In this document: piece by piece, positions 1 through 17,363 of the stretch
How the letters are laid out: each line of letters opens with the position of its first letter
How positions within the stretch are numbered: position 1 is the stretch's first letter
Origin: Echinicola jeungdonensis
Lineage (GTDB): Bacteria; Bacteroidota; Bacteroidia; Cytophagales; Cyclobacteriaceae
Assembly (NCBI RefSeq): GCF_030409905.1
Contig: NZ_JAUFQT010000008.1
Location: forward strand, 1 to 17,363
Reading direction: 5' to 3'
Length of the DNA: 17,363 nt
Notes under the pieces: generated by a model
What the model was told of the DNA's origin: nothing
The model's input: the letters and a program-made list of their open reading frames with translations, nothing else
Databases searched by the model: none
Made by a program: the position numbers and the translations under genes

Positions 1-1218
1 TTTCCAGCTTTCCTAACCTTTCCATCAAAGGAGGGTGGGAATAGTTGACAAAAACGTGCAAGGGATGTGGATTGATTTGGGTTAGTGTTTTGACCGAAAG
101 CGTTTTTAATGCACTGGCAATGGCTTGCCATCATATGTTTCCTGGCAAATCGCTCCGCTTCAAATTCGTTTTTCCGGCTAAGCAATTCATAAATATTCCC
201 AACACGGTACTTATTGGGGAAAACAGTAAGGCAAAACCTATCAAGTTAAATGGACTGCCCACCTATCACCTCCCATAGCTTGGCTGATTTCTGGTTATTG
301 ACGAATAAAGAAAGCAACAAAAGCATCACCCCTAATTGCAGGATACTTATCACCAAGCTTTGGATGATGTGCTTTTTCTTGAAGTGCCCTATTTCATGGG
401 CCAGGACTGCTACCAATTCCTCTGGTTTGTGTTGCTCCACCAGGGTATCAAAAAGAACCACCTTTTTCTTTTGCCAAAACCGGAAAAAAAGGCATTTGCC
501 TTAGTGGACCGTTTGCTTCCATCCATTACAAAAACATTTTCCAACGAAAACCCACGGAGGAAGCATATTCCATGATTTTACTTTCAGCTCCCCTTCTTCC
601 AGAGGAGTTAATTTATTGAACAAAGGCAAGATCCATGAAGTGTAAAACATATTGATCAAAACCATGAAAACAGCAGCTACCCCCAAAAGTAAAGCCAGAA
701 ACCTTCCCCCAATTCCTGTATCAACCAAAGTAAAAGGGCAAGCAAGCCCCCACCTATTAATATCCCAACCAAATAACCTTTTACTTTATCTCCAAAAAAA
801 GTTTTCCGGTGGTTTTATTAAACCCAAACTCTTCTTCAATTTTAAAAGTATGGTAATAATCAAATGGGATGGAAAGCAAATCAGAACCAATAAAAAGCAA
901 GCCAAAAAACAACAGGGATTGTAAGATCATTGGATCTACCCATTGGCTAACCCATTGATCCAGCAAACCAAAACCACCCCAGATTAACATCCCCAAGGTG
1001 ATGACCAAGGAAAACGAGCCACTTATTAGGCCAAAATAATAATTGGTTTTTTGATAAGATTTGGCCTCCTGAAGTTTTTCTTGATCCAAAAAATTTTGAA
1101 GGGTAGCAGGTACTTGGGGTACCTTTTGACGAACATTTAACCAGGAAGTGAATTTATCAAACAAAAATCCAAGGGTAATCAACCCGATCATCAAGTATTT
1201 TAAACTTTCTGCGCTCAT
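1..1218 (-). CDS. M48 family membrane metalloprotease (CAAX prenyl protease 1/Ste24-like), C-terminal end cut by window edge; arm 1
   Basis: The protein begins MSAESLKYLMIG and has several hydrophobic segments before a catalytic core. The zinc motif HEIGH is encoded at 384-398 (about residue 270), preceded by LVAVLA and followed by FKKKH. The third zinc ligand is the first Glu of EFEAE at 153-167 (about residue 348). Ste24-type M48 enzymes are integral membrane zinc proteases of about 410 residues. This one reaches the late HPPLMERL segment, so only a few C-terminal residues seem to be missing. The ATG at 1216-1218 lies 12 nt after the porP stop, which suggests co-transcription. The frame breaks near 790, after residue 145, where arm 1 has lost a C (accgg against acccgg in arm 2), and again near 480-580 and 280. 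These are read errors. The family call is firm; the substrate is unknown. Confidence 0.9.
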
Positions 1219-1230
1219 TCGGCAAATCTA

Positions 1231-2276
1231 CTAAAATTTGGGACAGGGAAGAATAGTGTCCCTCAACCTTGGTGCCCCAGGGTTCTTCCTATCTGGAAGA
1301 CTGAAAGAAATGCTAATTTCATGAGCCCCACCGGACTGAATACCTAATTGGGAAACCGTATAATCAAAACTATAACCAATATCCATTCCGGTTGGCAAAC
1401 TCAAGCCCAGCAAAACCACCAACGCATCCCGATTAGATTCCTGGTAATTGGTTTATAAGGAACCTCTATACAAAAACCCACAATCAAGGGTTCCGCATAA
1501 AGGTAAGCCCCTACATCCAGTTGCTCAAATGGGCCTTGCCGTTTATAGTTAAGGGTTGGGGTGATATACCTTTGTTTGTAAGTATGGGTAAAATCCCTTT
1601 TCATAGCACCATGGCCCAGGGGAATCCGGTAACCTGCATGACCGGAAAACTTGACCGGCAATTTGCTTTCCCCATCAAAAAAGACTGGTTGGGTTGATTA
1701 ACATGGTGGGCTGAAGCCCCCAGCAAAAATTTTCAGTAAAAAAAAGCCCTCCAAATGATAAGGAGAGCATATCAATCGGATCCCCCAACCCATTCAGGTT
1801 CCCATCTCCTGGCATAGGCGGTGCGAATGGATCATTGGGATCTATTGATTGGCAAAAACCAAATTTTCATAAAAGCCAATATCTCTGCGGATATAGCTGG
1901 CTTGAAATCCAGGCCTGAAATACATGGACTCGGCCAATTTAAGTTCATAAGCATAAATCCCCGAAATGGTTAAGGACTTTAAATTTGCTGCCCCTTCAGT
2001 ATCATTCATCACCATCACCCCTACACCACTATTATACCTTTCCAAAAAGGTATCATAATAAACAGAGAATGTTTTAAATTGGGCATCCAGTCCAGGCCAT
2101 TGGGTTCGGTAATTGGCACCGATTCTACCTTGCAAATCTGAACCGGCAAAAGCGGGATTTAAATATAAAGGAGCTGCATAATATTGAGTATATTGTGGAT
2201 CTTGGGCATAAGCATCACCTGTATAAATAATATACATCAAAATACAAAAAACAATATATATAAAAGACCTAAACAA
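1231..2276 (-). CDS. PorP/SprF family type IX secretion system outer-membrane protein; arm 1
   Basis: The protein has about 346 residues. An N-terminal signal peptide (FRSFIYIVFCILMYIIY, then DAYA) is followed by the family hallmark QDPQYTQYYAAPLYLNPAFAG. Further family-like stretches are RTQWPGL, YDTFLERYNSGVGV, the mid-protein LSLSFGGLFFTENFWLGA and the late LSLPTGMDIGYSFDYTVSQL, ending in FCPKF. PorP/SprF proteins are predicted outer-membrane beta-barrels that help T9SS cargo proteins reach or stay on the cell surface. The start is taken as TTG at 2274-2276, because an in-frame TAA lies just upstream and the next ATG (residue 14) would cut the signal peptide. The gene diverges from the giant T9SS cargo gene and leads into the M48 gene. 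Frame breaks near 1850, 1660-1700 and 1420-1490 are repaired by arm 2 and taken as read errors. Confidence 0.93.
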
Positions 2277-2356
2277 TTTTTTGTTCGTTTATTTGAGTAA
2301 CATGTGTTTATTAAACGACATGATAAGACAGGTGTTTATCCTGGTAAAAGTAAATT
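2277..2356. promoter_or_regulatory. Divergent intergenic region between porP-like and adhesin genes; arm 1
   Basis: These 80 bases separate two outward-facing start codons and must hold both promoters if the genes are transcribed as drawn. The region is AT-rich. An 11-base odd palindrome, GTTTATTAAAC, lies at 2306-2316 and is unchanged in arm 2 (15052-15062), so it is a possible operator. I do not find a clean Bacteroidota TAnnTTTG box; TACTTTTA on the minus strand is the nearest match. The promoter assignment rests on position only. Confidence 0.45.
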
Positions 2357-5300
2357 ATGAAAAGGAATCGTCCCAACATAACAAAAAAACATTTTTACTG
2401 TCCTAATATTGGTATTTTCATACCTTTTACACCCAATATACAGCTATTCACAGGGATATAATGAAAAACGAATGGGTTTTTGGGTACTGTGGCACAGCCA
2501 GGATAATAATTATATTTCATTTGGAAAGGTGAAAATCCTACCGTCCTCAGTTTACCAGGTTCTCAACTTTGGGTACGGCAATGTAGCCTTAGCTATTGAC
2601 CCATCACTGGTGAAACACTATTTTACACCGATGGGCTTTGGTTTATAATTATTTAAATGAACCTATGCAAGGTGTGGTAGGCGAATTGGGAGGAATGGAA
2701 GATGAAAGGCAAACAGTTGCCATCGCTGAATTGGATTTTGAACCTCAAGGGGGGAATAGATTATTTTACACCTTTTACATTACCCCTGGAGGACAATTGG
2801 AATATGCCATCATGGACATGAACGACCAAGGAGGCCCCCTCCAACCAACCTCCAGCAGGATCAGTTTCTCCTGGGGGCACCATAGGCCCATCCGAAGGCC
2901 CTATTATTGTAATAAAAGCACCAGGCCAGCCAAGTTTCCTCATCAGTTTTGAAAATGGGCAAGTGATATCCAGGGAAATCTTGATCAAGAAGGGCAATTC
3001 GGAGCCCCCCGGTCCACTCCCTTGGATTTCACTCCTAAGGCAATTTATTACGAGGAAGTCACCAATACTTTATTATTCATACCTGAGGAACCTGGAATAA
3101 ACATCACTCTTGTCAACATCAACCCAACACGGGGTCATTTGGATCCCACTTCGAAATCAGCAATCAGCAGGTCCTGAAACAATTGAAGGAGTGGTTGTTT
3201 CCCCAAATACAGATTATTTTTATTATAGCCAGGGAGACCAGATACTAAGAGTTCCTGCCAGTGGAGATTTTGATGGAACGCCAGAAGCTATCCCGTTAAA
3301 TAATCCCGTAGAAAATGTTTATGACCTCAAATTTGGACCGGATGGTAAACTATATTATATCTATCAAGAGGAAAACAGTGATGCTTTTTAGTTGGAACAG
3401 TCAATAACCCAGAAGAGGAGGACCTGCTTAATGTAGAGGTGGATGAAGACCCTTTCCAGGGAACTGATTTTTGTGGATCTATATTTCCCCATTTTGCTCC
3501 AGATATGGATGGCATTAGTGGAACGGTGGATTTTTCCTGGTCCCCAAATCCCCCTTGCATGAATAATCCCTGCAGTTGACTTCAAATATAATTCCACCAA
3601 AATTCCAGTAGAAACCTATGAGTGGACGATTAATCCGGCCCCAACAGATCAAGATGGTGAGGAACTTGAGTAGATTTAAATGAGGAACATCTTCTTTTAC
3701 CCGCAGCGGCCACCAATGAACAAAACATTAACGTTTCACTGGTGGTAGAATTTGGAGATGGTAGTAAGGATTCAGTAGCCTACCCCATTACCTTGCAGGA
3801 AAACAACCTTCAGGCCAACTTTATGCCCTCAGATACAACTACCTGTAACCAATGTGTTGACCTGAATGAAATGCTGGATGTCTCCAGTGGTGAGGAAGGC
3901 CAGGGTGGGGGAATGGAGGTGGAGGGACCGGTGGAGGCCAAGGAGGCGGCCAAACCAACTATGAGTATTTCTGGTCCAATAAAAAGGATGAAGGATGGAT
4001 ACCTGAAGGAGCCAATGAAGTTTGTGAGCCGGGCTTATATTGGGCATTGGTTAGGGAACCAGGATCCTCTTGTTATGTTTATGCACAAACCAGGGTCAAA
4101 ATGTGGGACCCGGAGACCGATCAAAAGATAGATGACCAGACCAATTCGGTTTGGTACTTTGGCCAAAACGGTGGGCTAAATTTCAACCCGACCCTGACGA
4201 CCCGGATGGAATTGTCCCCCGCCCAGTGGAAGACCCTGGTTGGATGGAATCTACCTGCAGGGACTACCACCATCTCTGACCAAACCGGACAGGTTTTGTT
4301 TTATACTGATGGCCAAACCGTTTGGGATCTTAATGGAAATGTCATGGAAGGGGGACAGGATATAGGAGGTGACAATTCCTCTTCCCAAAGTGTGGTGGCC
4401 GTACCCATCCCACAGGAAGAATCTCTATATTACCTGTTCACCACTGAATCGGCAAGTGGAGGAAGCAACCAGGTAAAATTTAGTCTGGTAGATATCAAGG
4501 GGGAAAACCCCAGTGGGGTAGGAAGTGTGGTAAGTGGGGACAACTTCTTATTCAGCCCCGGCACGGAACAAGCGGCTGCCCTGACAGCAGGAGACACCAC
4601 CTGGATGATGTTTCATGAAATGGGCAACAACTCTTTTAGAGCTTATCCTATTACAATGAGGGAATTGGGCAACCCGTAATCAGTTCAGCAGGAAGCGACC
4701 ATAATTTTGGCACTGGAGTTGGAACCATGAAATTCAATTCCGATGGAAGCAAATTGGCTGTTACCATCAATGATGGAGGAGAAAATAAAGTTGAAATTTT
4801 GATTTGATCAGGACACTGGTCTTTTGACCCCTTATGCTTCTATTGATTTGATGTCCAATGATGAGGTGTATGGTCTGAGTTTTCCAATGACGGGCAAAGA
4901 ATTTTGTCTCTTACCGCAATGGAGGAGGCATTCAGGAATTCCCTGTAGAAGGGGGAACTACCACCGATAACACTGACCCTGACAACCCCATTACACAATC
5001 CTGTCCAAGCTGCTTTGAAAATGCCTCCACTCAGGCTGCAATAGAACAATGTATTCTGACAATATCACGACCTTAGCCCAAAGCAGTGGCCAAAATTTGG
5101 GAGCCCTCCAAATTGGCCCGGATGGGCAGATATATGCCTCAATTGTTGGAGCAAGTCAGGTTGGACAGATCCAGGCGGCACTGACTGCAACAGCAGCACC
5201 TACCGTCCTGACGGACCACAAACAGGTGGCACCAATGGACTGGGCTTACCCTCCTTTGTTCAAAACTCTGGAAGCAGTATCCCTGAGCCGGGACTGGAAG

Positions 5301-7906
5301 GGCCAGATAGATTATGTTTGGCAGATGGAGAAGCACTGGGCACATTTGAAGGAGGTGGAGAACCCGATATTGACAGTTATTTTTGGACCATTACGGATAC
5401 TGATGGGAATGAGATCCACACTTTTGGAGGTGTCGGTGAAGATTTCCAAACCATGGAATACCCTTTGATTCGGCTGGGGTTTATACTGTTACTTTGGATG
5501 TGGAAAGGTGCCGGGTAGGATTTAATTATCACCATGAAACAAAAGAAGTAGAAATTCTCCCTCCTGTCCTTACCTTGATTGATGATGTTACTACTTGTAG
5601 TGGCAACCCTGTAACCTTAACAGCTATAGATGGCTATGATGAAAGTGAGGATCTGTATAATTTTGATTGGAGAAATGCTGCTGGTGAAGTATGGGAGACA
5701 GCTCATCCAATACTATTGTAGTGGATGAGGCAAGCATTTATACAGTAACCGTTTCTTATAAAACCCCTGTCGGAGAAGACCCGGCGACTTACGAAACATG
5801 TGCTGTTTCAAGTTCTGTATTTGTGGGACCCGCTTTTGATTTTGACCTGAACCAAACTGCCGAATCATCATGTTACAATGAAAATGTTGTCAATTTTGCA
5901 CCAAACACCCCAGTGGAAGGGGATTGGGCCTACCAGGTTCAAGGGGACAGCACCTCATTTGTTTCACTTGGAAGAGGCTTTGAGTTAAACTTGAATGTTT
6001 CCAATTACCCGGTCCGGGAATTATGATATTATATTCACCACTGAAGATCCCATCTTGAAGGTTGTATAGTTGAAAAAAGGGCAGAATTGGAGGTAAGCCC
6101 TCTGCCTGAATTTTCCATTGATGCAATTACCCCGGCAACAAGTTGTAACAGTTTGGATGGAAGTTTTGAAATCAATATGGAATCCGATGCGGATTCTGTT
6201 ATCGTAGTGGAAACCGGAATGAATTTTATTAACGTCACCCAAGGAGAAACATTGACTCCCGGCAACCTTGATCCTGGAATTTACACCGTCAAGGCAAGGC
6301 TAGGAGGCTGCGTCAATTTTAAAACTGTAAGCATTCAAAACAACAATCCTCCTAGTAGCTTTGACCCAACGGTAACCCCTAACTCAGAAGTTTGCGGCCC
6401 GGATGGAACCCTAATGGTTCCTTGATATAGAATTGGCAGATCTTCTCAGGGAGGAGAATATGTGATTACCGTGAATTGGATGGTGTTCAATTTATGGGAT
6501 CTTTTACCGGAAATACATCCGTGTCCCTAAGCAGTGGAGAATATGCAGTAGAGTTATCTGATGCCAGTGGTTGCGCTTTTCATATGACAGTCTTTTTACA
6601 ATTGAAGGAAAAAAACAGGGTGGATTTTTCCATCCCAACCCAAACTATCGCCTGCGAGGCTTTTATTTTCAGGCCTCAATCCGAGGAGGACTTAACATTT
6701 ACTATCACGGATCCAAATGGGACTACCTTAAGTCCAGATTCAGAAGGAAATTTCACCTTAGGGTTGGAAGGGACCTACCAGGTAAAGGGAGCACCAGCAG
6801 ATCCTAACAATGAAGATTGTCCAAGAATAAGAGATTTGAACCTGGTTTTAAATGATCAGGTAATATATGAAGTATCAGGCCCGCAATATCAATGTAACTC
6901 TCCAAGAGGGGTTTACCGAGCCGTACTTGATCCTGGGTTTGATCCTGATGATTATATTTTTATGTGGAGGAACAGTGAGGGCACAATAGTCAATAGGGTC
7001 AGACAATATCCTCCGCTCAACAAGAAGAATTATCACTGGAGGTTCAACCAAAAATTGGGGCTGCCTGCCGGGACCTCCAATTACTTTTGAAACCGTCCCA
7101 TTTGTTCACCAAGCCCAGGTATCCCTGAATGCAGAGTCCGGCATTTGTTTTGACAACACCCCTGCTGTCATTACTGCTGATATTGATGTTGAACTATCTG
7201 ATGAAATCAGGATAGAATGGCACCGGGTAACTAATGGAAATTCAGAAAGGATCCCCCAATTTGACGATTTGACTGAAATTTCAGTAGATGAATCTGGGAC
7301 ATACCGGGCTTTTGTAATCAATGAAACCGCAGACCTGCAATGTATCATAGGAACAGATGAAATTGAAGTTTTCAGATCGGATTCAGAACCACCTGTTTTA
7401 GAGGAGAGTTATACCATTTGTGCCATTGAAGGGGTGTCTACAACCTTGGATTCATTGGGAAATTGGTCTGAATATGAGTGGTGGCTTGATGGAGAATTGG
7501 TCAGCACTGACTCCACCTTCACTCCTATCGAACCGGGCAATTATGAACTTATTCTTTCAGATCAGGCCAGCTGTGAATATGCACTTTCATTTGAAGTAAT
7601 TGAGGATTGTAGGCTCCTGATCACCATTCCTACAGGTCTTGTCCCTGGAGACGAGGAAAGAAACTTTGTTGTTTACGTCAATGATTTTGTGGATGAGATC
7701 AGTTTTTGATTTATAACCGATGGGGCGAGTTAATTTATCATTGTATAGAGGAAAATGTTCCAGAAAATTCCCCATTTTGCGAATGGAATGGATTTGTCAA
7801 TGGCAAAAAGGTCCCCATAGGCACCTACCCTGTCATTGTCAAATATAAAAGCCAGGACCAAAACCTAGAACAAACCATCAAAAAAGCTATTGTAGTAGTA
7901 GAATAA
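2357..7906 (+). CDS. Giant T9SS type B (CHU_C) multidomain surface adhesin/gliding-motility-like protein; arm 1
   Basis: The protein has about 1850 residues. In order: signal peptide (1-31: MKRNRP..., hydrophobic VLILVFFIPF, ending near YSYSQG); a first repeat-rich module (about 33-350) with LFYTDG and FGPDGKLYYIY; an Ig/PKD-like segment (about 410-495: ETYEWTINPAP, VVEFGDGSKDSVAYPI); a Gly-rich linker (about 514-533); a second module (about 595-975) with NSVWYFGQNGGLNFNP, LFYTDGQTVWD and IGPDGQIYASI; a PKD domain (about 980-1070: SYFWTITDTDGNEI, SAGVYTVTLDVERC); several Ig-like segments; and a C-terminal CHU_C domain (about 1750-1850: YNRWGELIYH, WNGFVNGKKVPIGTYPV). CHU_C domains direct T9SS type B secretion, so it probably acts at the cell surface. 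The divergent PorP/SprF gene is its likely partner. The in-frame TAG near 3671 and many other frame breaks disappear when arm 2 is consulted. The ligand is unknown. Confidence 0.9.
3898..3956 (+). repeat. Gly-rich low-complexity linker inside adhesin; arm 1
   Basis: After correcting one lost C (gggggaatgg here, gggggaactgg in arm 2), the segment encodes GQGGGTGGGGTGGGQGGGQT. It lies between the first Ig/PKD-like segment and the second WYFG module, where a flexible hinge is plausible. Repeated GGA/GGT/GGC codons make it slippage-prone in vivo and error-prone in reads, so its exact length is uncertain. Confidence 0.8.
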
Positions 7907-7910
7907 ACGC

Positions 7911-8660
7911 ATGATCACATTAATTCCCCAGCCAAATCACTGGATTTAAGCAGCACTGACATTTCATTATCGACTCAACCTGATTTTCCCAAGGAAATCC
8001 AATCCTTGGTTTCCATCATGAAGAAAAAGTCCACTTCTGACATCCAAAATTTGATGAAAGTCAGTGAAAACATTGGAGAACTTAAACATGAGAGGTATAG
8101 AAATTTTGAAAAAGAGTTTACCCGGAAAATTCAAAGCAGGCGCTTTTGACTTTTAATGGGATGTTTACAGAAATATGGATATTGAACATATTCCTTAAAG
8201 GATTTTGAATTTGCCCAAGAACATCTTAGGATCCTTTCCGGTTTATACGGACTCCTTAAACCCATGGACTTGATCCAACCCTATCGTTTGGAGATGGGAA
8301 TTTCCCTGGAAAATAAAAAAGGGAAAAACCTTTATGAATTCTGGGGCGATAAAATTGCAAAAGCAATTGATAAAGCCAGCAATGGTGATCCTGTGATTGA
8401 CCTGGCATCCAAAGAATATGGAAAAAGCAGTCAATCTTAAAGCATTAAAAAGCCCCATCGTTCATGTTAACTTTAAGGAATTCCGGAATGGGAAATATAA
8501 AATTGTAGGTACTTTGGCCAAACAAGCCAGGGGAATGATGGCCAATTATATTATCAAAAATAAAATCAATGACCCTGATAAAATCAAACTCTTTAATGAA
8601 GACGGTTATGAATTTTCGGAGCCCGAAAGCAAAGGAAATAAGTGGATTTTCGTACGTTAA
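7911..8660 (+). CDS. yaaA: YaaA, peroxide stress resistance protein (DUF328/UPF0246 family); arm 1
   Basis: The protein has about 250 residues. Family landmarks appear in order: N-terminal [23 protein letters not shown], the highly conserved [19 protein letters not shown] then [39 protein letters not shown], and the C-terminal GYEFSEPES...WIFVR. In Escherichia coli YaaA lowers intracellular free iron during hydrogen peroxide stress and so limits Fenton damage; it is cytoplasmic and binds DNA. The ATG lies 4 nt after the adhesin stop (TAA ACGC ATG), so it is probably translated from the same transcript. Frame breaks near 7924 (a T lost), 8125-8195 and 8423 are absent from arm 2 and are read errors. 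The TAA stop is followed at once by the stem-loop at the fold point. Family assignment is very secure. Confidence 0.95.
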
Positions 8661-8699
8661 TAAAACATAGCCTTAATAATATTTTAAGGCTATGTTTTA
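8661..8699. terminator. Stem-loop at the fold axis; possible yaaA terminator
   Basis: A 16-bp perfect stem (TAAAACATAGCCTTAA at 8661-8676 pairs with 8684-8699) encloses TAATATT and begins immediately after the yaaA stop. It would suit a rho-independent terminator with a T-rich 3' flank. However, any fold-back read creates a hairpin at its turning point, so the right half of the stem may be no more than the return read. Deleting the single T at 8677 makes the centre (CCTTAAAATATTTTAAGG) a perfect palindrome with no spacer. Whether a natural hairpin exists cannot be decided from this window. Confidence 0.35.
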
Positions 8700-9445
8700 T
8701 TAACGTACGAAAATCCACTTATTTCCTTTGCTTTCGGGCTCCGAAAATTCATAACCGTCTTCATTAAAGAGTTGATTTATCAGGGTCATTGATTTTATTT
8801 TGATAATATAATTGGCCATCATTCCCCTGGCTGTTTGGCCAAAGTACCTACAATTTTATATTTCCCATTCCGGAATTCCTTAAAGTTAACATGAACGATG
8901 GGGCTTTTTAATGCTTTAAGATTGACTGCTTTTCCATATTCTTTGGATGCCAGGTCAATCACAGGATCACCATTGCTGGCTTTATCAATTGCTTTTGCAA
9001 TTTTAGCCCCAGAATTCATAAAGGTTTTTCCCTTTTTTATTTTCCAGGGAAATTCCCATCTCCAAACGATAGGGTTGGATCAAGTCCATGGGTTTAAGGA
9101 GTCCGTATAAACCGGAAAGGATCCTAAGATGTTCTTGGGCAAATTCAAAATCCTTTAAGGAATAATGTTCAATATCCATATTTCTGTAAACATCCCCATT
9201 AAAAGTCAAAAGCGCCTGCTTTGAATTTTCCCGGGTAAACTCTTTTTCAAAATTTCTATACCTCTCATGGTTAAGTTCTCCAATGTTTTCACTGACTTTC
9301 ATCAAATTTTGGATGTCAGAAGTGGACTTTTTCTTCATGATGGAAACCAAGGATTGGATTTCCTGGGAAAATCAGGTTGAGTCGATAATGAAATGTCAGT
9401 GCTGCTTAAATCCAGTGATTTGGCTGGGGAAATTAATGTGATCAT
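8700..9445 (-). CDS. yaaA: YaaA, peroxide stress resistance protein; arm 2 reading of the same gene
   Basis: This is the return read of the gene at 7911-8660. The ATG at 9443-9445 follows the adhesin stop by 4 nt, as in arm 1. This arm has the intact start (ISPAKSLDL in frame) and a good central stretch: [37 protein letters not shown] and the [19 protein letters not shown] block all read through. It carries its own errors: near 9000-9015 (GGGGCTAAAA for GGGGCGATAAAA, giving SGAKIAKAI), near 8830 (CAGG run, frame lost after AKQ) and near 8772 (GAGTTGATTT for GAGTTTGATTT). Joining both arms gives one complete protein. It is not a second genomic copy. Confidence 0.93.
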
Positions 9446-9449
9446 GCGT

Positions 9450-12400
9450 TTATTCTACTACTACAATAGCTTTTTTGATGGTTTGTTCTAGGTTTTGGTC
9501 CTGGCTTTTATATTTGACAATGACAGGGTAGGTGCCTATGGGGACCTTTTTGCCATTGACAAATCCATTCCATTCGCAAAATGGGGAATTTTCTGGAACA
9601 TTTCCTCTATACAATGATAAATTAACTCGCCCCATCGGTTATAAATCAAAACACTGATCTCATCCACAAAATCATTGACGTAAACAACAAAGTTTCTTTC
9701 CTCGTCTCCAGGGACAAGACCTGTAGGAATGGTGATCAGGAGCCTACAATCCTCAATTACTTCAAGAAAGTGCATATTCACAGCTGGCCTGATCTGAAAG
9801 AATAAGTTAATTGCCCGGTTCGATAGGAGTGAAGGTGGAGTCAGTGCTGACCAATTCTCCATCAAGCCACCACTCATATTCAGACCAATTTCCCAATGAA
9901 TCCAAGGTTGTAGACACCCCTTCAATGGCACAAATGGTATAACTCTCCTCTAAAACAGGTGGTTCTGAATCCGATCTGAAAACTTCAATTTCATCTGTTC
10001 CTATGATACATTGCAGGTCTGCGGTTTCATTGATTACAAAAAGCCCGGTATGTCCCAGATTCATCTACTGAAATTTCAGTCAAATCGTCAAATTGGGGGA
10101 TCCTTTCTGAATTTCCATTAGTTACCCGGTGCCATTCTATCCTGATTCATCAGATAGTTCAACATCAATATCAGCAGTAATGACAGCAGGGGTGTTGTCA
10201 AAACAAATGCCGGACTCTGCATTCAGGGATACCTGGGCTTGGTGAACAAATGGGACGGTTTCAAAAGTAATTGGAGGTCCCGGGCAGGCAGCCCCAATTT
10301 TGGTTGAACCTCCAGTGATAATTCTTCTTGTTGAGCGGAGGATATTGTCTGACCCCTATTGACTATTGTGCCCTCACTGTTCCTCCACATAAAAATATAA
10401 TCATCAGGATCAAACCCAGGATCAAGTACGGCTCGGTAAACCCTCTTGGAGAGTTACATTGATATTGCGGGCCTGATACTTCATATATTACCTGATCATT
10501 TAAAACCAGGTTCAAATCTCTTATTCTTGGACAATCTTCATTGTTAGGATCTGCTGGTGCTCCCTTTACTGGTAGGTCCCTTCCAACCCTAAGGTGAAAT
10601 TTCCTTCTGAATCTGGACTTAAGGTAGTCCCATTTGGATCCGTGATAGTAAATGTTAAGTCCTCCTCGGATTGAGGCCTGAAAATAAAAGCCTCGCAGGC
10701 GATAGTTTGGGTTGGGATGGAAAAATCCACCCTGTTTTTTCCTTCAATTGTAAAAAGACTGTCATATGATGAAAAGCGCAACCACTGGCATCAGATAACT
10801 CTACTGCATATTCTCCACTGCTTAGGGACACGGATGTATTTCCGGTAAAAGATCCATAAATTGAACACCATCCAATTCACGGGTAATCACATATTCTCCT
10901 CCCTGAGAAGGATCTGCCAATTCTATATCAAGGGAACCATTAAGGGTTCCATCCGGGCCGCAAACTTCTGAGTTAGGGTTACCGTTGGGTCAAAGCTACT
11001 AGGAGGATTGTTGTTTTGAATGCTTACAGTTTTAAAATTGACGCAGCCTCCTAGCCTTGCCTTGACGGTGTAAATTCCAGGATCAAGGTTGCCGGGAGTC
11101 AATGTTTCTCCTTGGGTGACGTTAATAAAATTCATTCCGGTTTCCACTACGATAACAGAATCCGCATCGGATCCATATTGATTTCAAAACTTCCATCCAA
11201 ACTGTTACAACTTGTTGCCGGGGTAATTGCATCAATGGAAAATTCAGGCAGAGGGCTTACCTCCAATTCTGCCCTTTTTTCAACTATACAACCTTCAAGA
11301 ATGGGATCTTCAGTGGTGAATATAATATCATAAATCCCGGACCGGGTAAATTGGAAACATTCAAGTTTAACTCAAAGCCTCTTCCAAGTGAAACAAATGA
11401 GGTGCTGTCCCCTTGAACCTGGTAGGCCCAATCCCCTTCCACTGGGGTGTTGGTGCAAAATTGACAACATTTTCATTGTAACATGATGATTCGGCAGTTT
11501 GGTTCAGGTCAAAATCAAAAGCGGGTCCCACAAATACAGAACTTGAAACAGCACATGTTTCGTAAGTCGCCGGGTCTTCTCCGACAGGGGTTTTATAAGA
11601 AACGGTTACTGTATAAATGCTTGCCTCATCCACTACAATAGTATTGGATGAGCTGTCTCCCAATACTTCACCAGCAGCATTCTCCAATCAAAATTATACA
11701 GATCCTCACTTTCATCATAGCCATCTATAGCTGTTAAGGTTACAGGGTTGCCACTACAAGTAGTAACATCATCAATCAAGGTAAGGACAGGAGGGGGAGG
11801 AATTTCTACTTCTTTTGTTTCATGGTGATAATTAAATCCTACCCGGCACCTTTCCACATCCAAAGTAACAGTATAAACCCCAGCCGAATCAAAGGGGTAT
11901 TCCATGGTTTGGAAATCTTCACCGACACCTCCAAAAGTGTGGATCTCATTCCCATCAGTATCCGTAATGGTCCAAAAATAACTGTCAATATCGGGTTCTC
12001 CACCTCCTTCAAATGTGCCCAGTGCTTCTCCATCTGCCAAACATAATCTATCTGGCCCTTCCAGTCCCGGCTCAGGGATACTGCTTCCAGAGTTTTGAAC
12101 AAAGGAGGGTAAGCCCAGTCCATTGGTGCCACCTGTTTGTGGTCCGTCAGGACGGTAGGTGCTGCTGTTGCAGTCAGTGCCGGCCGGATCTGTCCAACCT
12201 GACTTGCTCCAACAATTGAGGCATATATCTGCCCATCCGGGCCAATTTGGAGGGTCCCAAATTTTGGCCACTGCTTTGGGCTAAGGTCGTGATATTGTCA
12301 GAAATACATTGTTCTATTGCAGCCTGAGTGGAGGCATTTTCAAAGCAGCTTGGACAGGATTGTGTAATGGGGTTGTCAGGGTCAGTGTTATCGGTGGTAG

Positions 12401-15010
12401 TTCCCCCTTCTACAGGGAATTCCTGAATGCCTCCTCCATTGCGGTAAGAGACAAAAATTCTTTGCCGTCATTGGAAAACTCCAGACCATACACTCATCAT
12501 TGGACATCAAATCAATAGAAGCATAAGGGGTCAAAAGACCAGTGTCCTGATCAAAATCAAAAATTTCAACTTTATTTTCTCCTCCATCATTGATGGTAAC
12601 AGCCAATTTGCTTCCATCGGAATGAATTTCATGGTTCCAACTCCAGTGCCAAAATTATGGTCGCTTCCTGCTGAACTGATTACGGGTTGCCCAATTCCCT
12701 CATTGGTAATAGGATAAGCTCTAAAAGAGTTGTTGCCCATTTCATGAAACATCATCCAGGTGGTGTCTCCTGCTGTCAGGGCAGCCGCTTGTTCCGTGCC
12801 GGGGCTGAATAAGAAGTTGTCCCCACTTACCACACTTCCTACCCCACTGGGGTTTTCCCCCTTGATATCTACCAGACTAAATTTTACCTGGTTGCTTCCT
12901 CCACTTGCCGATTCAGTGGTGAACAGGTAATATAGAGATTCTTCCTGTGGGATGGGTACGGCCACCACACTTTGGGAAGAGGAATTGTCACCTCCTATAT
13001 CCTGTCCCCCTTCCATGACATTTCCATTAAGATCCCAAACGGTTTGGCCATCAGTATAAAACAAAACCTGTCCGGTTTGGTCAGAGATGGTGGTAGTCCC
13101 TGCAGGTAGATTCCATCCAAAACCAGGGTCTTCCACTGGGCGGGGGACAATTCCATCCGGGTCGTCAGGGTCGGGGTTGAAATTTAGCCCACCGTTTTGG
13201 CCAAAGTACCAAACCGAATTGGTCTGGTCATCTATCTTTTGATCGGTCTCCGGGTCCCACATTTTGACCCTGGTTTGTGCATAAACATAACAAGAGGATC
13301 CTGGTTCCCTAACCAATGCCCAATATAAGCCCGGCTCACAAACTCATTGGCTCCTTCAGGTATCCATCCTTCATCCTTTTTATTGGACCAGAAATACTCA
13401 TAGTTGGTTTGGCCGCCTCCTTGGCCTCCACCGGTCCCTCCACCTCCAGTTCCCCCACCCTGGCCTTCCTCACCACTGGAGACATCCAGCATTCATTCAG
13501 GTCAACACATGGTTACAGGTAGTTGTATCTGAGGGCATAAAGTTGGCCTGAAGGTTGTTTTCCTGCAAGGTAATGGGGTAGGCTACTGAATCCTTACTAC
13601 CATCTCCAAATTCTACCACCAGTGAAACGTTAATGTTTTGTTCATTGGTGGCCGCTGCGGGTAAAAGAAGATGTTCCTCATTTAAATCTAACTCAAGTTC
13701 CTCACCATCTTGATCTGTTGGGGCCGGATTAATCGTCCACTCATAGGTTTCTACTGGAATATTTGGTGGAATTATATTTGAAGTCAACTGCAGGGGATTA
13801 TTCATGCAAGGGGATTTGGGGACCAGAAAAATCCACCGTTCCACTAATGCCATCCATATCTGGAGCAAAATGGGGAAATATAGATCCACAAAAATCAGTT
13901 CCCTGGAAAGGGTCTTCATCCACCTCTACATTAAGCAGGTCCTCCTCTTCTGGGTTATTGACTGTTCCAACTAAAAAAGCATCACTGTTTTCCTCTTGAT
14001 AGATATAATATAGTTTACCATCCGGTCCAAATTTGAGGTCATAAACATTTTTACGGGATTATTTAACGGGATAGCTTCTGGCGTTCCATCAAAATCCACT
14101 GGCAGGAACTCTTAGTATCTGGTCTCCCTGGCTATAATAAAAATAATCTGTATTTGGGGAAACAACCACTCCTTCAATTGTTTCAGGACCTGCTGATTGC
14201 TGGATTTCGAAGTGGGATCCAAATGAACCCGTGTTGGGTTGATGTTGACAAGAGTGATGTTTATTCCAGGTTCCTCAGGTATGAATAATAAAGTATTGGT
14301 GACTTCCTCGTAATAAATTGCCTTAGGAGTGAAATCCAAGGGAGTGGACCGGGGGGCTCCGAATTGCCCTTCTTGATCAAGGATTTCCCTGGATATCACT
14401 TGCCCATTTCAAAACTGATGAGGAAACTTGGCTGGCCTGGTGCTTTTATTACAATAATAGGGCCTTCGGATGGGCCTATGGTGCCCCCAGGAGAAAACTG
14501 ATCCTGCTGGAGGTTGGTTGGAGGGGGCTCCTCCTTGGTCGTTCATGTCCATGATGGCATATTCCAATTGTCCTCCAGGGGTAATGTAAAAGGTGTAAAA
14601 TAATCTATTCCCCCTTGAGGTTCAAAATCCAATTCAGCGATGGCAACTGTTTGCCTTTCATCTTCCATTCCTCCCAATTCGCCTACCACACCTTGCATAG
14701 GTTCATTTAAATAATTATAAACCAAAGCCCCATCGGTGTAAAATAGTGTTTCACCAGTGATGGGGTCAATAGCTAAGGCTACATTGCCGGTACCCAAAGG
14801 TGAGAACCTGGTAAACTGAGGACGGTAGGATTTTCACCTTTTCCAAATGAAATATAATTATTATCCTGGCTGGTGCCACAGTACCCAAAAACCCATTCGT
14901 TTTCATATATCCCTGTGAATAGCTGTATATTGGGGTAAAAGGTATGAAAAATACCAATATTAGGACAGTAAAAAATGTTTTTTTGTTATGTTGGGACGAT
15001 TCCTTTTCAT
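9450..15010 (-). CDS. Giant T9SS type B (CHU_C) surface adhesin; arm 2 reading of the same gene
   Basis: This is the return read of the gene at 2357-7906, with ATG at 15008-15010 and TAA at 9450-9452. It is the better copy for the second module: about 260 codons run unbroken between 13316 and 12531, covering NSVWYFGQNGGLNFNP, WNLPAGTTTISDQTGQVL, the LFYTDG motif and SDHNFGTGVG. It also keeps GEELELDLNEEH at 13680-13700 where arm 1 shows a stop, and SDAFLVGTVNNPEEE near 13970. Its own breaks include one near 9650 in the CHU_C domain, one near 9560-9600, and several between 10060 and 10560. The consensus of both arms is needed for a usable protein sequence. Confidence 0.88.
13408..13465 (-). 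repeat. Gly-rich linker of adhesin; arm 2
   Basis: This is the counterpart of 3898-3956. It reads in frame here as GQGGGTGGGGTGGGQGGGQT, followed by NYEYFWSNKKDEGW. It is the more reliable copy, because the surrounding frame (MLDVSSGEEGQ upstream) is continuous. Confidence 0.8.
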
Positions 15011-15091
15011 AATTTACTTTTACCAGGATAAAACACCTGTCTTATCATGTCGTTTAATAAACACATGTTACTCAAATAAACGAACAAAAAA
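15011..15091. promoter_or_regulatory. Divergent intergenic region; arm 2
   Basis: This is the counterpart of 2277-2356. The 11-base palindrome recurs as GTTTAATAAAC at 15052-15062. One indel separates the arms at GGATAAAACACC (arm 1 equivalent GGATAAACACC), so spacing-based promoter arguments across that point are unsafe. No further gene or RNA is visible. Confidence 0.45.
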
Positions 15092-16138
15092 TTGTTTAGG
15101 TCTTTTATATATATTGTTTTTTTTTGTTTTGATGTATATTATTTATACAGGTGATGCTTATGCCCAAGATCCACAATATACTCAATATTATGCAGCTCCT
15201 TTATATTTAAATCCCGCGCTTTGCCGGTTCAGATTTGCAAGGTAGAATCGGTGCCAATTACCGAACCCAATGGCCTGGGACTGGATGCCCAATTTAAAAA
15301 CATTCTCTGTTTATTATGATACCTTTTGGAAAGGTATAATAGTGGTGTAGGGGTGATGGTGATGAATGATACTGAAGGGGCAGCAAATTTAAAGTCCTTA
15401 ACCATTCGGGGATTATGCTTATGAACTTAAATGGCCGAGTCCATGTATTTCAGGCCTGGATTTCAAGCCAGCTATATCCGCAGAGATATTGGCTTTTATG
15501 AAAATTTGGTTTTTGCCAATCAAATAGATCCCAATGATCCATTCGCACCGCCTATGCCAGGAGATGGGAACCTGAATGGGTTGGGGATCCGATTGATATG
15601 CTCTCCTTATCATTTGGAGGGCTTTTTTTACTGAAAATTTTTGGCTGGGGGCTTCAGCCCACCATGTTAATCAACCCAACCAGTCTTTTTTGATGGGGAA
15701 AGCAAATTGCCGGTCAAGTTTTCCGGTCATGCAGGTTACGGATTCCCCTGGGCCATGGTGCTATGAAAAGGGATTTTACCCATACTTACAAACAAAGGTA
15801 TATCACCCCAACCCTTAACTATAAACGGCAAGGCCATTTGAGCAACTGGATGTAGGGCTTACCTTTATGCGGAACCCTTGATTGTGGGTTTTTGGTATAG
15901 AGGGCTTCCTTATAAACCAATTAACCAGGAATCTAATCGGGATGCGTTGGTGGTTTTGCTGGGCTTGAGTTTGCCAACCGGAATGGATATTGGTTATAGT
16001 TTTGATTATACGGTTTCCCAATTAGGTATTCAGTCCGGTGGGGCTCATGAAATTAGCATTTCTTTCAGTCTTCCAGATAGGAAGAACCCTGGGGCACCAA
16101 GGTTGAGGGACACTATTCTTCCCTGTCCCAAATTTTAG
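15092..16138 (+). CDS. PorP/SprF family T9SS outer-membrane protein; arm 2 reading of the same gene
   Basis: This is the return read of the gene at 1231-2276. The proposed TTG start is at 15092-15094 and the TAG stop at 16136-16138. The C-terminal part is in frame for longer than in arm 1: from about 15878 it reads WYRGLPYKPINQESN, then ALVVLLGLSLPTGMDIGY, to the FCPKF end. It also carries NLVFANQIDPNDPFAPPMPG across the point where arm 1 breaks. Local errors include a nine-T run in the signal peptide (near 15116-15125), PALCRF for PAFAGS near 15220, and breaks near 15300, 15430, 15590 and 15850. The merged protein is about 346 residues. Confidence 0.9.
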
Positions 16139-16150
16139 TAGATTTGCCGA

Positions 16151-17363
16151 ATGAGCGCAGAAAGTTTAAAATACTTGATGATCGGTTGATTACCCTTGGA
16201 TTTTTGTTTGATAAATTCACTTCCTGGTTAAATGTTCGTCAAAAGGTACCCCAAGTACCTGCTACCCTTCAAAATTTTTGGATCAAGAAAAACTTCAGGA
16301 GGCCAAATCTTATCAAAAAACCAATTATTATTTTGGCCTAATAAGTGGCTCGTTTTCCTTGGTCATCACCTTGGGGATGTAATCTGGGGTGGTTTTGGTT
16401 TGCTGGATCAATGGGTTAGCCAATGGGTAGATCCAATGATCTTACAATCCCTTGTTTTTTGGCTTGCTTTTATTGGTTCTGATTTGCTTTCCATCCCATT
16501 TGATTATTACCATACTTTAAAATTGAAGAAGAGTTGGGTTAATAAAACCACCCGGAAAACTTTTTTGGAGATAAAGTAAAAGGTTATTTGGTTGGGATAT
16601 TAATAGGTGGGGGCTGCTTGCCCTTTTACTTTGGTTGATACAGGAATTGGGGGAAGGTTTCTGGCTTTACTTTTGGGGGTAGCTGCTGTTTTCATGGTTT
16701 TGATCAATATGTTTTACACTTCATGGATCTTGCCTTTGTTCAATAAATAACTCCTCTGGAAGAAGGGGAGCTGAAAAGTAAAATCATGGAATATGCTTCC
16801 TCCGTGGGGTTTCGTTGGAAAATGTTTTTGTAATGGATGGAAGCAAACGGTCCACTAAGGCAAATGCCTTTTTTTCCGGTTTTGGCAAAAAGAAAAAGGT
16901 GGTTCTTTTGATACCCTGGTGGAGCAACACAAACCAGAGGAATTGGTAGCAGTCCTGGCCCATGAAATAGGGCACTTCAAGAAAAAGCACATCATCCAAA
17001 GCTTGGTGATAAGTATCCTGCAATTAGGGGTGATGCTTTTGTTGCTTTCTTTATTCGTCAATAACCCAGAAATCAGCCAAGCTATGGGAGGTGATAGGTG
17101 GGCAGTCCATTTAAACTTGATAGGTTTTGCCTTACTGTTTTCCCCAATAAGTACCGTGTTGGGAATATTTATGAATTTGCTTAGCCGGAAAAACGAATTT
17201 GAAGCGGAGCGATTTGCCAAGGAAACATATGATGGCAAGCCATTGGCCAGTGCATTAAAAACGCTTTCGGTCAAAACACTAAACCAAATCAATCCACATC
17301 CCTTGCACGTTTTTGTCAACTATTCCCACCCTCCTTTGATGGAAAGGTTAGGAAGCTGGAAAA
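16151..17363 (+). CDS. M48 family membrane metalloprotease; arm 2 reading, C-terminal end cut by window edge
   Basis: This is the return read of the gene at 1-1218. The ATG is at 16151-16153, and HEIGH is encoded at 16961-16975. The EFEAE segment holding the third zinc ligand is at 17195-17209, followed by RFAKETYDGKPLASALKT and HVFVNYSHPPLMERLGSW at the edge. Arm 2 has the correct cytosine at ACCACCCGG (near 16549) but has lost a T in the following run. The true sequence there is probably NKTTRKTFFGDKVKGYL, which neither arm gives alone. The N-terminal third is more damaged here (breaks near 16190, 16280, 16340, 16465 and 16530); the catalytic part is cleaner. Confidence 0.88.

Follow-up and report, generated by a model that had tools for sequence, protein, structure and literature searches.

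A mirrored 17,363-base contig of Echinicola jeungdonensis as a fold-back artefact of library or read

The stretch of DNA analysed here (the window, 17,363 bases of Echinicola jeungdonensis) is almost certainly an assembly leftover from one folded library molecule, which carried an ordinary chromosome stretch of about 8.7 kb out and back. We have very little doubt that it is a fold-back artefact of the library or the read and not a biological feature. The initial annotation had already suspected a fold-back read, and several arguments now favour this. First, the locus occurs once on C1, the largest contig of the assembly. Second, C1 continues past the point where the window turns back. Third, five further axes in small contigs, and each end of C1, also show fold-backs. 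As for the specific cause, we lean towards a strand end that snapped back on itself before sequencing. The assembly consists of 13 contigs (4,534,283 bases, or 4.53 Mb; 99.57% complete and 2.46% contaminated), of which C1 has 3.23 Mb, C2 has 1.10 Mb and the other 11 are small. Contig C8 (17,363 bases) and the window are one and the same, so that the window has no flanks.

The entire window had been described as a palindrome, and self-BLAST bears this out: positions 1-17362 align with 17362-1 at 98.4% identity in one minus-strand alignment (98.365% over 17,494 columns, with 22 mismatches and 240 gap openings), which cannot be the work of chance. The sums of mirrored positions are also as described, falling from 17,363 at the ends to 17,360 at the axis. 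The further claim that the axis has no unique spacer holds in the sense that the palindrome is effectively spacerless, but seven bases at 8677-8683 are unmirrored. The differences between the left and right arms are mainly gaps. The features of the window, with their counterparts on C1, are as follows.

1..8685, + strand: left arm, equal to C1:833892-842636, 99.2% identical
8677..8683, no strand: axis loop TAATATT between CCTTAA and TTAAGG; the native C1 sequence continues as TAATATTTTTCAATTAATG
8678..17363, - strand: right arm, the same locus read back, equal to C1:842634-833891, 99.0% identical
2..1218, - strand: left copy of the CAAX-type M48 peptidase gene, truncated at the contig end and with a broken reading frame; intact on C1 (410 aa)
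1234..2276, - strand: left copy of the PorP/SprF gene (type IX secretion), with a broken reading frame; intact on C1 (350 aa)
2357..7903, + strand: left copy, with many frame breaks, of the gene for a protein that carries the type IX secretion signal domain CHU_C; 1862 aa on C1
7925..8657, + strand: left copy of yaaA, which encodes a peroxide stress protein, with a broken reading frame; intact on C1 (250 aa)
8703..9445, - strand: yaaA, mirrored copy, frame broken
9453..15005, - strand: mirrored copy of the CHU_C protein gene, interrupted by many frame breaks
15092..16135, + strand: PorP/SprF gene, mirrored copy, frame broken
16151..17353, + strand: mirrored copy of the M48 peptidase gene, truncated at the contig end and with a broken reading frame

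Both arms map to a single locus of C1 (833,891-842,636, about 8.74 kb) at 99.0-99.2% identity. When this segment was searched in two halves against the whole assembly, it was found once on C1 and twice each on C7 and C8, with a piece of 1.57 kb also on C10 and C11; C7 and C8 aside, the only match over its full length is thus the one on C1. There, the genes of the M48 peptidase, PorP/SprF, the CHU_C-domain protein and YaaA are all intact. The fold axis lies about 20 bases past the yaaA stop. If the window were an artefact, the initial annotation had proposed, sequence should leave the palindrome at the axis and enter unique DNA downstream of yaaA. In the assembly, C1 does just this: it crosses the axis point into different sequence and runs from yaaA to a gene that begins 111 bases past the yaaA stop and encodes a protein of 125 aa with the Pfam domain DPBB_1, which we label RlpA-like.

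The same arrangement is found in relatives. In 10/10 congeners, yaaA is single and the locus runs from the end of a CHU-type protein through yaaA to an RlpA-like gene, so the gene order of the genus is present on C1 and absent from the window. No inverted copy was found near yaaA in any of these ten, within loci of 3,750 bases. In the more distant Cyclobacterium sp. 1_MG-2023 (YaaA match 63%), the preceding CHU-type protein was found beside yaaA, and the locus gave no RlpA-like match at E 1e-5; the RlpA-like neighbour of yaaA is kept within the genus and is not seen in the Cyclobacterium locus. For yaaA, 15 pieces are matched in the assembly, 14 of them on C7, C8, C10 and C11, whereas each of 10 relatives gives one match. 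The window is of value only as a caution, as the artefact sits in the sole genome of its species among those examined and inflates its gene counts. Self-alignment of small contigs is a way to flag such records.

The window could be taken for a real structure, whether an extrachromosomal palindrome, a molecule with hairpin ends or an inverted duplication carried by some cells, and the fact that two contigs (C7 and C8) have their ends and axis in common speaks for this. We consider it extremely improbable, given that the same structure recurs at other loci, that the non-palindromic chimera shared by C10 and C11 is duplicated in the same way, that the window has no flanks, and that none of the eight gene copies in its arms is intact. 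The longest stop-free stretches in the window, assigned to a protein when they have 15 residues in common with it, have a length of 168 residues for the 410-aa protein, 148 for the 350-aa, 270 for the 1862-aa and 122 for the 250-aa protein. The frame breaks differ from one arm to the other, and eight broken gene copies with unlike breaks are hardly to be expected of a replicating palindrome. A real duplication was rejected on the single occurrence of the locus on C1, the single yaaA and lack of an inverted copy in 10/10 congeners, and the same defect at other loci. A different version, in which snapped-back DNA ends became sealed hairpins in vivo at numerous loci (e.g. at broken forks), would make the contigs real hairpin-capped chromosome fragments; we give it only a very slight chance.

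Fold-backs are not confined to the window. Among the 11 small contigs, eight are fold-backs, at six axes, and the other three are chimeras. C4, C5, C7, C8, C9, C12 and C13 are palindromic along their full or almost full length, and in all seven of these single-axis contigs the axis lies at most 63 bases from the contig centre. Their axes fall on C1 at about 842,634 (C7 and C8), 476,284 (C5), 611,746 (C4) and 47,670 (C9, C12 and C13). C6 consists of two overlapping palindromes: its path on C1 runs from 1,082,052 to 1,094,326, back to 1,080,910 and forward to 1,089,908, with axes at about 1,094,320 and 1,080,909 (C6 positions 12,200 and 25,567), 13.4 kb apart. Its two turns require either that the assembler merged two folded molecules or that a single one was folded at both ends. 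C10 and C11 are the same non-palindromic chimera, C1:842,310-840,738 joined to C1:2,025,916-2,039,767, with the junction at 1568 in C10 and 1562 in C11 and ends that agree within 8 bases. Perhaps by coincidence, one of the two pieces comes from within the locus of the window, at a distance of about 325 bases from the window's axis. In C3, where the first 6,000 of 15,749 bases were mapped, C1:878,562-879,695 is joined to C2:1,003,255-998,370. The mapping of contigs to C1 covers BLAST pieces of at least 500 bases.

The repetition of contigs bears on how the fold-backs arose. C7 duplicates the window, with the same axis and with outer ends that fall on C1 within one base of those of C8. Over whole arms, the left arms of C7 and C8 have 30 differences from C1 in common and the right arms 27. 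The count is 5 and 7 when unlike arms of C7 and C8 are compared, and 8 and 3 when the left and right arms belong to the same contig; if differences were placed at random, about 0.3-1 would be expected per arm pair. Like arms are far above unlike arms, and because unlike arms also exceed the random expectation, some sites must err repeatedly. C9, C12 and C13 behave similarly, with the same axis and outer ends within 81 bases. With errors counted from alignment column 201 up to the last 30 columns, the pairs among C9R, C12L and C13L share 48, 40 and 37 errors and those among C9L, C12R and C13R share 17, 17 and 19; in the remaining nine pairs the count is 5-12. This pattern puts C9 in the opposite orientation to C12 and C13, and its loop (GGAG vs CTCC) independently agrees. 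Differences common to unlike arms thus number 3-8 in C7/C8 and 5-12 in C9/C12/C13, and part of the error sharing is error recurring at the same sites. Relative to C1, the four arms of C7 and C8 carry 201 deletions; homopolymers of at least two bases, which hold 59% of the bases of the locus, account for 179. C7 and C8 fit one folded molecule of which more than one lap was read, and repeated contigs with identical ends are what is expected from repeated passes over a single circular template. Since its ends and arm-specific errors are common to the window, C7 does not look like independent support for the junction.

Seven axes were compared with the native C1 or C2 sequence, C12 representing C9 and C13; at the eighth, at the right end of C1, the loop was read by eye as AATTG. 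Six of the seven have a loop of 3-14 bases; in order, the loop reads CTCC, CATCCAATTGGATT (alternatively AATT, if one stem mismatch is allowed), TAG, none, TAATATT, CCCTGGA and AAATA, and the native strand enters the mirrored arm by 5, 0, 1, 3, 2, -5 and 1 bases. The loop is native sequence in five of the six cases and partly native at the C6b axis, which has no native microhomology; the C6a axis is the one that has no loop. The loop of C7 is TATATAT and that of C8 TAATATT, a difference that we take for base-calling noise. A native terminator hairpin was rejected as the cause of the window's axis: C1 has no long stem at this point and runs on after TAATATT as TTTCAATTAATG. Since it is absent from C1, the long stem in the window was made by the fold.

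These observations would be explained if the end of a fragment had been closed by its own strand, which snapped back over a short loop with the help of 0-5 bp of inverted microhomology. Such an end would act as a hairpin lacking an adapter, and a circular long-read template of the PacBio kind would then yield forward-plus-reverse subreads at each lap, which may have been assembled apart from the chromosome as the small spurious contigs C7 and C8. Central axes would be expected if the folded molecule is itself the insert. We infer that the platform was PacBio and that reads support the fold-back. Several observations count against the snapped-back molecule: the missing native microhomology at C6b, the missing loop at C6a, the mismatch between the loops of C7 and C8, and the errors shared by unlike arms. 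The two axes of C6, 13.4 kb apart, also count against it, a molecule with one hairpin end giving no simple account of them.

Two other routes to the same artefact have to be weighed. In the first, an ordinary SMRTbell molecule with two adapters had the adapter of one end go unrecognised, which left forward and reverse passes connected, and read correction later removed this adapter. This would also yield central axes and repeated contigs. In its treatment of adapters, PMC4134206 describes how unremoved ones give subreads of the insert forward and then in reverse, with false hairpins and small spurious contigs as possible outcomes; the window resembles these in its forward-then-reverse insert and in being a small contig apart from a good chromosome contig. 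The data on palindromes in PMC6218980 put them at 0.5% of non-amplified PacBio reads, ascribed there to false positives or to missed or missing adapters. Three 16-base pieces of the PacBio adapter, searched as exact matches on both strands, were absent from C3-C13 and from the end stretches of C1 and C2; noisy remnants would escape such a search. Moreover, a blunt junction should mirror every base, yet a loop is present at six of seven axes and is native in five of six. It is these mostly native loops, together with the adapter pieces not being found, that lead us to favour a snapped-back strand end over a plain missed adapter, and that set the window apart from the case in PMC4134206 as described there. 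The missed adapter remains a rival, with a lesser though appreciable chance, because read correction can blur a blunt junction.

In the second route, whole-genome amplification preceded library making, and a displaced strand primed itself and copied its own arm. The short microhomology at most turns and the two consecutive turns of C6 speak for such a chimera. Palindromic long reads are an established product of amplification in PMC6218980, which reports many more palindromes in amplified DNA than in non-amplified PacBio reads; the window has in common with the reads treated there by Pacasus an inverted copy of one locus at the fold point. Unlike those reads, as that source presents them, the fold-backs show few axes, which are central in their contigs, the outer ends are repeated, and there is no sign of amplification. 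Among the small contigs and the examined ends of C1 there are eight axes only, beside contigs of 3.23 and 1.10 Mb, and central axes with repeated outer ends are not what shearing of amplified DNA gives. We therefore regard amplification as improbable. The window is a kind of artefact already in print (PMC4134206 and PMC6218980), and with a snapped-back end as the favoured cause its form is probably the adapter-less one. The portion of PMC8495745 consulted gives general chimera rates for long-read libraries and nothing on fold-backs.

Fold-backs also affect the large contigs. They are found at both ends of C1, with turns at about 18,016 on the left and 3,208,690 on the right, and each turn adjoins the edge of a stretch common to an end of C2, the overlap between C1 and C2 being 16-19 kb. 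These fold-backs probably kept C1 and C2 from being joined, and the two contigs are probably one circular chromosome held open by fold-back reads. The end stretch of C2 contains, at its positions 12,900-15,000, internal repeats that are about 78% alike, at offsets of about 230 to 1,600 bases. A separate repeat of at least 1 kb is common to the outer ends of C9, C12 and C13 (C1 near 55 kb) and to C1:1,094,457-1,095,500.
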